Assembly: GCA_947172415.1 (NCBI GenBank)
Contig: OX359190.1
Span: 3,720,001-3,784,000 of the forward strand
From: Chondrosia reniformis
Taxonomy: Eukaryota; Porifera; Demospongiae; Chondrillida; Chondrillidae
Length of the DNA stretch: 64,000 nt
Direction: 5' to 3'
Made by a program: the position numbers and the translations under genes. Positions 52,581 through 61,019 of this stretch are shown in pieces. Under the pieces are notes generated by a model. The model saw only the letters and a program-made list of their open reading frames with translations. It had not been told where the DNA came from and did not search any database. Positions within the stretch are counted from its first letter, which is position 1. The number at the start of each line of letters is the position of its first letter.

Positions 52581-52972
52581 GTACGTTGTACATTACACTA
52601 GACAGTGAAAGTAAATATATATATATCATCTTTCTATTAAAGATACAATATCATATCTTGAATCATTTTAGATGTCTGTATACATGCAATCAATGAGGAT
52701 AATACAATGCCATTCCAGCTCTAGTAACTTCTTTAAATAATACACCACAGAGGGGTATTAGGATGTTGTGGAAATACATTTTGTAACTCTCACAACATAA
52801 ATGAGGGGGCCATAAAACTCTAAAAGTTCAGAGGGCCCCAAATCTCTGGTTCATGTTAACCAAAAAAGCTGCCATTTTCCCAGTAAATTAGGGCCAGGGG
52901 CCTTTTTGCTAGTAATTTAGGCCCCACAGGGCCTTATTCTTGAGGGGGCCCATATTAATACTACAGCAGTCT

Positions 52973-53474
52973 AAATGTGTCTAAAGTTGTACGAGTGTGG
53001 CTTGACAGAAGTGTTCTTCATGTGTGTTAGGTTGTAAAGGTGTAGCTTAGCACAGGAGTTCTACTTGTGTCTACGTGGGTCTAAAGTTGTACAGGTATAG
53101 CTTAGCGGAGGCGTTCTACCTGTGCCTAAAGTTGTACGAGTGTAGCTTGACAGAAGTGTTCAACGTGTGTCTAACGTTGTAAGAGTGTAGCTTGATAGAA
53201 GTATTCTTCATGAGTCTAAGGTAGAAAAGTGTAGCTTAGCAGAGGTGTTCTACGTTTGTCTAAAGTTGTACGAGTGTAGCTTAGCAGAGGAGTTCTACAT
53301 GTGTCTAAGGTTGTACGAGTATAGCTTACCAGAGGGGTCCTACGTTTGCCCAAAGTTGCACCAGTGTAGCTTAGCAGAGGAGTTCTACGTGTGTCAAAAG
53401 TTGTTCCAGTGTAGCTTAGCAGAGGAGTTCTACGTGTGTCTAGAGTTATGCGAGTGTAGCTTAGCAGAGGAGTT
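52973..53474. repeat. 45-bp minisatellite, left block
   Basis: Unit approximately gtctaaagttgtacgagtgt followed by agcttagcagaggagttctacgtgt in two parts; about eleven units. Short ORFs of repetitive sequence on both strands come from the 45-bp (15-codon) period and are not genes. Confidence 0.95.
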
Positions 53475-53652
53475 CTTAGTCTGACATAGGACGACCAGAG
53501 TTCTGCCTCCATTTTGCTATGACGTCATTTTGTCAGATCAGTGGTGTGGAAGATAACTTGACTAAATCGTTTTAAGCCCCATAAGACCATGGGTAAATGA
53601 TAACTGTTAAATAACCTTTGATCTTCACCGCAATGTGTGTGAGAGTGTAAGA

Positions 53653-55182
53653 ATGGCTGCGACTATCGAAGGAACACTAAGAAAGAGTATCAGAGACATT
53701 GTGAGGAATCATGGTTATGACCGTTTGAAGGAGGAGCAGCTCTTAGGAGTAGAGAAATTTGTAAGCGGATCAGACGTATTTGTATCTTTGCCAACTGGCT
53801 TTGGAAAGTTGTTAATATACAGACTTTTACCTCCTGTCTCCAATCGCATCAAGGGATATACAGAACCAACGTCAATTGCGTTAGTTGTTATCCTCCCTTA
53901 TGGCAGATCAGAAGGCATGGTTTCTTCCATGGAGTTTAAGTGCTGAATTTCGCCTAGCATGACGCAAGTGCTTTACAACGAGTGAAAGAAGGCCATCACC
54001 AACAGGTATTCCTGACACCAGAGACTCCATGCCATGGACTAGGTATTCGGGTAATGATCATGTCAGAATCTTTTCCAGACAAATTAATTGCTTTTGTAGG
54101 TGATGAAGCACACTGTATTAAGAAGTGGTAAGTTAAATTAGGATATCCATGCAGTTCAATAACAAAAGTTTTCAAAAGGCAAATCTATGCATGCATGCAT
54201 AGTACATACTTTTACTTGCTCTTATGTGTTATAGGGGTGAGAGTTTTCGTTACGATTTCCTGCAACTTGGCGAAATCAGGAGCATTATACCATCCACTAC
54301 ATATATACTTGCCTTGACAGCAACTGCCACTAAAGCTGTGTTTCAAGCTGCTGTTACCACCCTGCACATGAGAAGCCCTAAAGTAATTGCAACAACTCCT
54401 GAAAGACCAAACATATTCCTCAGTGTAGTGGCTAAGAAAGAATTAACTAAGGTTATTCAGGACATTGCCACTGTTGTTGTATCCCCTGAAGGAGGCAATC
54501 CTTGTACTCAGCTTCCTAAGACTCTGGTTTTTTGTAGAAAGTAAGTTATAAAAGCATGTATGTGTGTTTATGGTGTACACATACCTATTTCGTTTATCAA
54601 ACACATGCTAGAAGTCCTTTGTGTACAATAGTTTGTGTTTATAGAAGAAGACAGTATAGCCCAGATAGACTTCAACAATGAGTTTGACATTATATATCAA
54701 TTAATAGTATATAGAAGTATACCTTGCTTGCTAAATGGAATAACTAATCTCTTAGACTATATACATACTTTGCATTTTGTATATGTAGATGTGAGGATTG
54801 TGGTACTATATATATACATACCTCAAGCACTTCCTTAGAGAAGCCTTTGTTTATCCACAGGGAGCACCATTACTTCTTGGTAATTGTTTTTGCGAAATCT
54901 ATACAAGGGCATCCACAACAACAATGAAGGAACAGATTATCGAGGCCTTCCAGAAGGAGTCATCATCATTAACAGTTGTAGTTGCCACTCTTGCTTTTGG
55001 AATAGGATTGGACATACCTGACATCGAGCAAGGTATTCATATTGGCCCCTCAACTGACAGTGAGTACTATGTTATGAGATTGGCCGAGTTGGAAGGAACA
55101 ACTCTGCAGCAAAAGCCATTTTGATTTCAAAATACAATTGTCATGCAAGTGACAAGATGAAGTCCTATGTCAGCATGTTTTA
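53653..55182 (+). pseudogene. RecQ-like DNA helicase of the TIR element
   Basis: Superfamily 2 3'-5' helicase. Exon 1 (53653-54127) has FVSLPTGFGKLLIY (motif I; Leu replaces the Ser/Thr after GK), FLTPET, and FVGDEAHCIKKW (motif II, RecQ-type DEAHC..W). Exon 2 (54235-54540) has GESFRYDFLQLGEIRS and ILALTATAT (motif III), ending CRK|GTAAGT. A last exon from about 54838 has YTRASTTTMKEQII and VVVATLAFGIGLDIPD (motif V). In motif VI the expected GRAGRDG is MRLAELEG, so the arginine finger is lost. At least three frameshifts exist. It looks like an inactive copy of a mobile helicase gene. Confidence 0.85.
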
Positions 55183-57225
55183 AAGCATGTAAGTGTGGTA
55201 AATGCAATGATTATGCAATATATGCTTAGTAGTATTGTCTATCCATGTAAGTATTTTATACTTGTTAACTTTGTGAAAAAGTGGTTTGAATTGATGAAAC
55301 CTGCTGTGATGTCGCCCAACTGCAGTCTCAAAGGCTTGCTGTGATATAAGTTCTCTCTCCACAAGTTTGATGTCTGGTGTAGTCTTTGGTTTCACATGAT
55401 GATCAGAAAGGGATTTGGGTTTTGTCAGTCCTTCATCAAAATTCTGTTGCACTTCCATCAAGTAATCAATAGACCTTGAAAGGTGAACAAAAATGTCTCT
55501 GCTTTGGTGGCTAATTGTCCATGGGCAAAGTCCTTGAGATGACCGCACATAAGTAGATATGCATTATTAATTTACAGAATAGGATATAACTATAGACGTA
55601 TATGAATTAGAATGTAGAAAAGTACACGTTGCTCACCGATTCAAGTGTTCCATGAACAGATCACATGGAATGTTGCAACCCTTTTGTCCTTTTGTGTTGA
55701 CAAATCTGCCCCATATCAATTGATTTTACAAACTGTCTGACAACATATAGTGGAGTTGCATGGTGATATTAATGCTTTCAATGCATACATGAATGTACAG
55801 AAGAACAATATAGTAACTGCCATATTGTGGCAACATGCATATAAGTTCAATGCATATGCCTTTCTATGATTGGTGAGCATGAATATCATGGTCATAACGT
55901 TCTAGTAACTCAACACTGCTGGCCCATCTCCTTCACTGATTGCATCCTTAAAACACTGTACCAAAGCAAGCCCATGAGCATGAGTTCCCTTGCATATAGT
56001 GGGTGGTGTTGGTGAACTGGGTGATTGCAGCTCCATCAGCTGACCCTGATCAATGTCAGTGTCATATTCAGAATCATCTGAAGAGCTGTGCATATCCAAA
56101 AAAAACACCATCTGCAACAAGATCCTCCACATATGATTCTACCCTGCAAAAGAATAAGGAATCCTCTTTGTTTGTTGTAAACTCTACATCTAATAGAAGT
56201 GAAAAGGATGGCTCTTCTGTAATTCCAAAGAATTGTACAACTTCTGGTCTCTACATGTAAATATGTACAACTATGTTGATCTATGTGTATACACATACAA
56301 ATATAGAAAATCTTTTGCCATAGCCTGATTAATATATATGTTACATACATAGGCATGCATACATCTAACATCCGAGATAGCTCTTCGTAGTGTCTCAGCA
56401 ATGGCATCTCTCTATCTTATATAGGCAGAGATCCTGGATTATCTTCTGCGTTTGAAGCAAAGGGCTTGAATGCACCGTAAGTTGCAGGGGTTGCAACTTC
56501 AACTGTATCTCTATACATAATTATTTGGGAAACAACATGAAAAATCTACATATATATTTCATAAATTATCTATTATTGTTACCTTTTAAATATACCTTGT
56601 TTGTGGTATGTCCTGACACAGGATTAGACTGAGCACTGTCCCCACAAATCTTGCTTTTTGGTTACTGATTTTTGCCAGCATTGCAATGATCAATGACAGG
56701 ACACCACCAGCTTGGTCGCACTTTTTCTTTGGTATGCATATCTGCAAAAAGTGATATAGCTGGCCACAGTGCTTGATTAGGTCTCTTTCGAGATTCTTCT
56801 ATGAGAACGACAGCAGACTGCATGCATCATATCTGTTGGGGAAGGAGTCACTGCTGCTTCCAGCTTTCTTTAACTCCATTTTCATCTCATGACCAAGTTC
56901 AGCAATGACGAATCCTCGTAATTTATGATATCTCAAAATATGCTTTGCTGCTGCACAATACTTCTTCTGGGCCATTATCTTAATTACATCTCAATTGCAT
57001 ACAGGAGATGAACAATATATTGGACAGGAAGGATACTAGATCAGTACCTGCAATGTAATATGCACAAGCTAGGAGATATCTTCATGTATACATACAGTAC
57101 TGCTTAAAATTCTTTTCCCACTTTGAACGCGTTTGGTTTGAATGCTGTCCTAGAGTAATCTCGATCCCTCGCGAGTACTTAAATCGTATTAACAGATTTT
57201 TAGTCAATTAACAAGTCAGAAATTG

Positions 57226-57420
57226 TGAATAAGCTGAATAAACGAAGAAGTAGATGAATTAAAGAGCTCAACGATCAATTAATAGACGAATTGAAGTGGT
57301 AAACGAATTACAAGTAGAGAAGCCAAACGTACGTTCCTAGATATGGGTGTGAATAAGTTGAATTAACGAGGAAGTAGACAAAATAAAGAGCTAAACGATC
57401 GATTAATTGCCTTTGTTTCC
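57226..57420. repeat. Direct repeat inside the TIR element
   Basis: gtgaataagctgaataaacg... (57226) and gtgaataagttgaattaacg... (57351) introduce two similar stretches of about 65 bp, each containing agagct.aacgatc.attaat. Confidence 0.75.
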
Positions 57421-57462
57421 TTTCGTTTAAAGGGGTCCCACTTTTCAGAAAAAATCATTTTC

Positions 57463-57790
57463 TTACTGTTGTTTGGTTTGAGGCTTAGATTTAGTTTCTT
57501 TGGATTTCGTCTCCTTCCTGGTCTTTGTTTGTCCTACACGATCGATTTTAGTCTTCCTACGCCTCTTCATTGGTTGCCAGTCCAAGAAATTAATGATCTC
57601 TGCGCAATAACCACGAGAACTTATCTTTACCGTGACTTCTGTTCCTTTCCTGGCATCTCTAAGATTGTCTTCTACATGTTTCATGTTTATTCAATTAATT
57701 TTCCCGTTGTCTTGCAAATCGAGCCATTTCACAGCTATTTCGTTCTTTTTAAAAGGTTTACAAGCTATCTCTCCGTCGAAATAACAATTT
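57463..57790 (-). pseudogene. Basic ORF inside the TIR element
   Basis: The - strand reads YFDGEIACKPFKKNEIAVKW, a stop, then NMKHVEDNLRDARKGTEVTV and a Lys/Thr-rich tail (KTKIDRVGQTKTRKETKSK) to the stop at 57463. One frame spans the whole segment with a single nonsense codon. It may be an exon of the partner protein or a third gene. No domain recognised. Confidence 0.35.
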
Positions 57791-59076
57791 CACACGTCAA
57801 AATGCTGCACTATATTATTTGTCAATTAAAGAATGTATGGTGTTAGTCGTTCGAGTACATGCGACTGTCCGAGAGTTCTAGTGAAACCTATGAGGAACAG
57901 ATTCGTTTGGTTTGCGTATTTTTGGTAAAGTAATTTAAGCAGTACTGTATATATACTGCACATGCAATGACTTATATATATATTTTTTTCCTTTTTCCTT
58001 TTTGGACATGCCTGTATCCTTGCTAGATCCCACCCTGTCTCTAGATGAATATAGTTAAATAGTACTATATTATTAATGAAGCAATATATTTGATGATCCT
58101 AAGCACAAAGATAGATAGGGATGCCATGCATGGATTGCTTGTACAGGGAGAAGAAGATATAGTATAATGAAGATCTCATGATTTGAAAAAAAACTTCACT
58201 GATTTAGAAGATGAAGAATTCCAATGTCTACATGTATACATGCACTATGTTCCTGATCAAGCCAGATTTTAAACTCACAACTGTAATATTTAATAGACAT
58301 ATATAGTGACTCATGGGCCCCTGCTTGGCCTTGTGCTCTTTTTTATGTGCATGTGTCACTTTAATAAATGATAAATAAAATAAATCAATATACTTTCACA
58401 GGTGCAGATGTTCCTTAAGTTTTTTATGTTGCTCTATTTTGTGGCAATGTGGTTGACTGCAACCTGAGTCGCTTTGGAGTGGGTGTCCAACTTCCTGGTG
58501 GTCTGGAGTGTTTTCCCAGTGGAGAAACAATTCTTGATAGGCTTTCCTGCTCAACAAGAGGCTGTATTGTTGTAGGTATAACAGCCTGTAAGTTGGTCTT
58601 CACATCCTGTTCCAGCTCTTTCAATCGCTTTTTCGTAGTTATTCAGCAATGTATTGCAGCTGAAGCAAATATATTCATCACCATGAAAGTGCGCTTATTC
58701 AAACGAGAAATTGGGGATTAGGAGATTCTCCAGCACGAAGGACTTAATAATTTTGTGAACTGACTCTGCAGAGGCTCCCTAAAGAACAAGCCTCTTCTTG
58801 TCAGACAAGGTTGTAGCTGTAGGTTTGTTGCAAATGTGGCAATCATCTGGTCGCTGATCTGCCATCGATACCGTGTTTGTGCACCATGGAATTCGCTGTG
58901 TACCTTTGACACCTCATATATGAATATTTGTGGGTGATAATTGTCGATGTTTATGTGTGCGTATAATGCGTGGGTGGAACGATTTAGTCGAGTTATCTAC
59001 CAAACCACTGTCCTGCCCATTACGTCATACGAAAATGGAAGCAGAACGGTGGTCGGACAATGTCAGACTAAGGAGT

Positions 59077-59345
59077 TATATGTGTGTCTAAAGTTGTAGA
59101 AGTGTAGCTTAGCAGAGGTGTTCTCCGTGTGTCTAAAGTTGTATGAGTGTAGCTTAGCAGAGGAGTTCTACGTGGTTCTAAAGTTATACAGGTGTAGCCT
59201 AGGAGAGAAGTTCTGCGTGTGTCTAAAGTTGTACGAGTGCAGCTAAGCAGAGGAGTTCTACGTGTGCCTGAAGTTGTACAACTGTAGCTTGACAGAGGCG
59301 GTCGAAGTGTGTCTAAAGTTGTACGAGTGTAGCATAGCAGTGGCA
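59077..59345. repeat. 45-bp minisatellite, middle block
   Basis: About six units of the same 45-bp repeat, same orientation as the left block, continuing exactly where the left block was cut by the TIR element. Confidence 0.95.
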
Positions 59346-60512: not shown

Positions 60513-60524
60513 ATGACAGTTTTA

Positions 60525-61015
60525 CATGTGTCTAAAGTTGTACGAGTGTAGCTTGACATAGGCGGTCTAAGTGTGTCTTGAGTTGTACGAGAGTAGTTGG
60601 ACAGGGGCAATCTAAGTGTGTCTAGAGTTGTTTGAGTGTAGCTTTACAGAGGCGTTTTAAGTGTATCTAAAGATGTATGAGTGTAGCTATGCTGAGGAGT
60701 TCTAAGTGTGTCTAAAATTATACGAGTGTAAATTGACAGAGGCGTTCTAAGCATGTCTAAAGCTGTACGAGTGTAGCTTTACTAAGGAGTTCTAAATGTA
60801 TCTAAAGTTGTACGAGTGTAACTTGACAGAGGTGTTCTACGTTTGTCTAAAATAGTAAAAGTTTAGCTTTACTGAGGAGTCCTAAGTTGTCTAAAATTTT
60901 ACGACTGTAGCTTGACAGAAGTGTTCCACGTGTGTCTAAAGTTGTATTAGTGTAGCTTTGCTGAGGAGTTCTAAGTGTGTCTAAAGTTTTGCAAGTGTAG
61001 CTTAGCAGAGGTGTT
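60525..61015. repeat. 45-bp minisatellite, right block
   Basis: About eleven more diverged units (gtctaaagttgtacgagtgt-like), same orientation as the other two blocks. Confidence 0.95.
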
Positions 61016-61019
61016 CTTC

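Follow-up and report, generated by a model that had tools for sequence, protein, structure and literature searches.

A 5,594-bp element in the 64,000-nt stretch of DNA analysed here (the window) is, with good probability, an old cut-and-paste DNA transposon that encodes a helicase and has become inactive. Its most likely lineage is AcademH, which reportedly occurs in animals and fungi, to go by the title of Kojima 2020. The element lies on contig C2 of a 15-contig, 117-Mb genome, presumably a eukaryotic one given its size and spliced genes. It and its relatives share conserved termini bounded by 9-bp target-site duplications, elements of this kind link a RecQ helicase gene to a gene of the DUF6589 family, and both genes of the window copy are decayed. 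The AcademH name is the most likely one by comparison with the published description of that lineage.

The first-pass annotation had described an element at 53470..59077 with inverted ends, a 5-bp duplication (gagtt) and a 45-bp minisatellite on both sides. The inverted ends are present: the two termini form ~95-bp inverted repeats that are 81% alike (left versus right, 97 nt, E 3.3e-18, in the genome search) and resolve into two imperfect arm pairs (53440-53528/59019-59107 and 53534-53571/58978-59015). When the ends of the copies were laid out together, their common terminus was found to start TAGTCTGAC(G/A)T. The conserved terminus TAGTC and the 9-bp duplication outside it therefore place the element at 53477-59070, to which the earlier bounds were moved. 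Anchored at TAGTC, the flanks match at 8 of 9 bases; the 5-bp reading therefore falls inside a 9-bp duplication that carries one substitution, gagtt being part of its unmutated core; an interim reading of 7 bp was dropped after the terminus had been fixed at TAGTC. The features of the element are collected in Table 1.

Table 1. Features of the window element and its insertions, in window positions.
Feature	Position	Strand	Details
Left target-site duplication	53468..53476	.	AGGAGTTCT; 8/9 identical to right copy
Left terminal inverted repeat	53477..53571	+	begins TAGTCTGACAT; 81% match to right end
Helicase exon 1	53653..54129	+	Walker A region to DEAHCIKKW, then gtaag; broken
Helicase exon 2	54236..54541	+	GESFRYDF..LALTATAT..TLVFCRK; 73% identical to C5 copy
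Open frame with helicase C-terminal remnant	54795..55121	+	match at ~54909-55076; motif VI unrecognisable by eye
Transposase C-terminal remnant	55183..55563	-	assigned by eye; DNA match between window and C5 copies 87.8%, 632 nt, 55384-56001
DUF6589 match, DLFMEHLNR, candidate catalytic E	55594..55779	-	PF20231 profile 315-376, 26.0 bits (cut-off 27)
Further decayed transposase remnants	55900..57000	-	frames by eye; 0 family matches here
Nested inverted-repeat element	57095..57947	.	853 bp, CAGTACTGCTTAAA, TA on both sides; foreign to transposon
Second inserted repeat	57984..58392	.	~410 bp, 95.6% identical to L061 1018-1426; foreign to transposon
N-terminal exon of partner gene	58430..58865	-	C-x2-C ... 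C-x2-C, zf-AD-like; stops and frame change
Right terminal inverted repeat	58978..59070	-	from arm pairs and genome search with right end
Right target-site duplication	59071..59079	.	AGGAGTTAT; 8/9 identical to left copy

The minisatellite does flank the element on both sides and, by eye, is continuous once the element and one duplication are removed; within the window it occupies 52970-53476, 59071-59343 and 60518-61017. Its core has 555 matches genome-wide with at most two mismatches, against 0 for the reversed control, and all 50 exact matches among the 100 of the 555 that were listed lie on C1-C14 at ~30-57% of the contig, which suggests a pericentromeric repeat. The window element sits within such an array, the C14 element described below adjoins one, and one of the 66 other loci examined has the repeat. 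Of the two sequences inserted into the transposon, the nested inverted-repeat element looks Tc1/mariner-like by eye, and the second repeat is apparently a younger insertion.

Elsewhere in the genome, the ends of the window element are found at more than 20 further places (at least 24 matches to the left end and at least 23 to the right, including the element's own and both ends of some copies), and several copies share both ends, each with its own target duplication, so that the second copy on which the transposon reading had been made to depend exists. The copies of 94-163 bp (L042, L043, L044, L049 and L054) are MITE-like, and the RecQ query led to a related set, 638-1,369 bp long and with TAGTCTCG termini, that has kept RecQ exon 1 between its ends. 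A second long copy on C5 (L059), for which one end was located and the other not found, is 88% identical to the first 165 bp of the window element and matches it over the left end (88.8% over 205 nt), the helicase part (80.3% over 1,024) and the transposase part (87.8% over 632); it holds an extra ~2.2 kb, Tc1-like by eye, at the point where the window copy runs uninterrupted (54768/54770). The element on C14 (2985768-2993293; 7,526 bp) has whole ends, with 82-bp terminal inverted repeats 97.6% alike, an 8-bp duplication GGCTGCAC and both genes inside, on one strand; stops interrupt its DUF6589 matches, and introns may account for some of them. On C6 (3.24-3.28 Mb), three stretches ~11.55 kb apart with identical match scores (L050, L051 and L052) each carry an inverted-end fragment and a 76% DNA match to the first exon of the partner gene, and are perhaps a tandem segmental array carrying a transposon piece.

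Target-site duplications were assessed in the 21 copies with both termini placed, namely 7 of the 14 two-ended copies (the window element included), all 13 of a second group of elements and the C14 element. L003, L004, L005, L006, L040, L056 and L058 were dropped on the grounds of one or both termini missing or unrecognisable or, in L058, of mismatched flanks; ten one-ended loci and the partial matches L016/L060, L022 and L036 were left out as well. In L039, L049 and L054 the right terminus was set manually where the alignment puts the counterpart of TAGTC. The flanks agree at 9 of 9 bases in 16 of the 21 copies and at 8 of 9 in three (the window element, L043 and L039), so that at length 9 a match of at least 8 bases is found in 19/21 copies, against 0/420 swapped flanks, while the remaining two (C14 and L049) have an 8-bp duplication. 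With at most one mismatch allowed, no copy (0/21) matches at lengths 5, 6, 7, 10 or 11, and C14 and L049 alone do so at length 8; the swapped-flank control gave 5/420 at length 5, 1/420 at length 6 and 0/420 at lengths 7-11.

The left gene of the window element is a decayed RecQ-family helicase, as the first-pass annotation had it, though a broken one. In exon 1 the first open frame stops at 53943, the DEAH box lies in a different frame, and the Walker A motif reads GKL, versus GKT. The best NCBIfam model for its three pieces is TIGR00614 recQ_fam (E 5.1e-4; E 1.7e-13 for 54203-54541; E 2.5e-7 for the C-terminal remnant), as it is for the three helicase pieces of C14 and the piece of L061; none of these pieces reaches the whole-protein cut-off of 219.8 bits, because each is a single exon. 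Pfam Helicase_C is above its cut-off in the window remnant (E 1.6e-5, 25.5 bits against 23.5) and in L024, and DEAD in L024 and L061, with 15.6 of the 26 bits in the window copy. The structural neighbours of the C14 helicase exon in the PDB are mainly RecQ, BLM, WRN and RECQ5. Core RecQ motifs are legible in C14 and L015, and motif VI is lost in the window copy.

The second gene, which had been described as convergent and zinc-binding, is indeed convergent and Cys-rich; it is now re-identified as a decayed DUF6589 protein with a Cys-rich N-terminus, probably the transposase. Both genes are located inside the element as claimed, and both are broken. The window DUF6589 match contains two stops, and its DLFMEHLNR motif recurs in other copies. 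DUF6589 is above cut-off at C14, C1:4.94 Mb, C3 and C5, and below the 27 bits in the window (26.0) and at C1:4.71 Mb (24.7); the C14 equivalent of the Cys-rich exon matches zf-AD weakly (E 0.048, 14.3 bits, cut-off 28). The motifs GGDQLTVARAR (C14 and C1) and EHLN (window, C5, C3 and C14) are candidates for the second D and the E of a DDE transposase, and the first catalytic D of the triad was not located in the DUF6589 copies. The earlier suggestion that the partner supplies DNA binding or transposase activity is therefore likely given DUF6589 and the Cys-rich N-terminus, the catalysis itself being predicted. When viral contigs were scanned with the DUF6589 exon of C14, no relative was confirmed, and a full-text literature search turned up no mention of DUF6589. 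A RING-finger open frame next to the C5 copy (L059 1486-2121), with a RING region alignable to structures of BRCA1, RAG1 and TRIM, had been considered as part of the transposase and was set aside because its three close copies (87-88% identity; on C3, C2 and C4, with open frames of 319 aa) are not near any DUF6589 match; it is another multicopy gene or mobile element.

Genome-wide, DUF6589 matches (8 in all) fall at six loci, on C14, C3, C5, twice on C1 and in the window, and a RecQ match lies within 5 kb at four of the six (window, C5, C3 and C14); the two C1 loci have none nearby, the nearest being ~51 kb off. L015, which lies 3-4 kb away from that on C5, combines RecQ matches with a stretch like the end of the C3 transposase (38%, 65 aa, E 2e-16). 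Near a C1 DUF6589 remnant, three long open frames on the minus strand of L070 (6747-8946) appear hAT transposase-like by eye. The order of the two genes is mixed, convergent in the window, C3 and both C5 loci and tandem in C14. Such mixed orientation would sit well with DUF6589-RecQ transposons forming a separate superfamily unrelated to Academ, defined by 9-bp duplications and TAGTC, with the helicase as an ancient core of the machinery and a shuffled gene order. We regard this as unlikely, since the pairing of a helicase with a 9-bp duplication matches the AcademH description, in which, as excerpted from PMC10045372, AcademH is the Academ lineage that encodes a helicase and makes 9- or 10-bp duplications and AcademX the one with a nuclease and 3-4-bp duplications. 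It is on this fit that AcademH is the best filing, and the first-pass view that the element matches no confidently nameable superfamily is not supported. In the available part of PMC10799480, the domains used to describe fungal AcademH helicases are DEAD and Helicase_C. The length of the window element also lies near the 5,565-bp average given for Academ elements of a bivalve library in an excerpt of PMC10294476, which lends weak support to Academ.

A quite improbable alternative is that the element is non-autonomous and has captured a host RecQ gene. The two broken genes and the short copies holding RecQ exon 1 alone would be in keeping with capture, and so would the ranking obtained with the window RecQ query, in which L023 (41%, E 1.7e-9), one of two loci taken for putative host RecQ genes, falls between C3 (35%, E 8e-11) and C14 (32%, E 3.9e-9); identity alone does not separate host from transposon RecQ. 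A splice donor right after DEAHC..W does: it is present in the window, L061, L014 and C14, and not clear in L015, whereas the host-like L023 and L037 read on past this point without one. Further points against capture are the higher identity of L061 to L024 (47%) than of L024 to L023 (35%), and the recurrence of the helicase-DUF6589 pair across diverged elements.

Kolobok elements offer a precedent for a RecQ accessory gene, KolobokH and Kolobok-1_CCri both encoding RecQ helicases (in Kolobok-1_CCri, from the complementary strand), according to the sections of PMC9587614 at hand. The same sections give a 4-bp TTAA duplication for Kolobok and report KolobokH from fungi only, and the duplications of 8-9 bp, non-TTAA in 21/21 copies, contradict an assignment to KolobokH or another Kolobok group, which is hardly credible. 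That the inverted termini belong to a segmental duplication, which the similarly spaced fragments on C6 might recall, has a negligible probability, as it is contradicted by 21 sites that each have their own, different flanking duplications.

The movement of an intact element may be pictured as follows. The partner protein, with its Cys-rich, presumably DNA-binding N-terminal part and its DUF6589 part of presumed DDE type, would bind the ~95-bp terminal inverted repeats, cut at TAGTC and insert the ends into target DNA at positions staggered by 9 bp, and repair of the resulting gaps would produce the 9-bp duplications; the RecQ-type helicase would probably unwind DNA at the ends or help to process the gaps. 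Helicase-carrying transposons of this kind have already been described; the window element adds an example to a known kind and does not introduce another mobile system. The useful additions are the mixed gene order and the link that ties DUF6589, a Pfam family of unknown function whose likely role is that of a transposase, to a helicase-bearing transposon; with its nested insertions, the element is also an example for annotating the source genome.

Among known systems, Helitrons resemble the family described here in encoding a helicase within a transposon, but they are not known to have terminal inverted repeats or target duplications, both of which this family has. KolobokH and Kolobok-1_CCri, DDD/E transposons, are alike in carrying a RecQ helicase and unlike in their 4-bp TTAA duplication (PMC9587614, as excerpted), and AcademX, although an Academ lineage too, has a nuclease and 3-4-bp duplications in the available text of PMC10045372, against the helicase and 9 bp found here. 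AcademH combines a helicase with 9-bp duplications as this family does: the duplication is 9 bp, within the 9 or 10 bp of AcademH, in 19/21 copies and 8 bp in 2/21, the helicase carries Helicase_C above cut-off in the window copy, itself decayed, and in L024, and DEAD in L024 and L061, and TIGR00614 places its pieces, each below the whole-protein cut-off, in the RecQ family.
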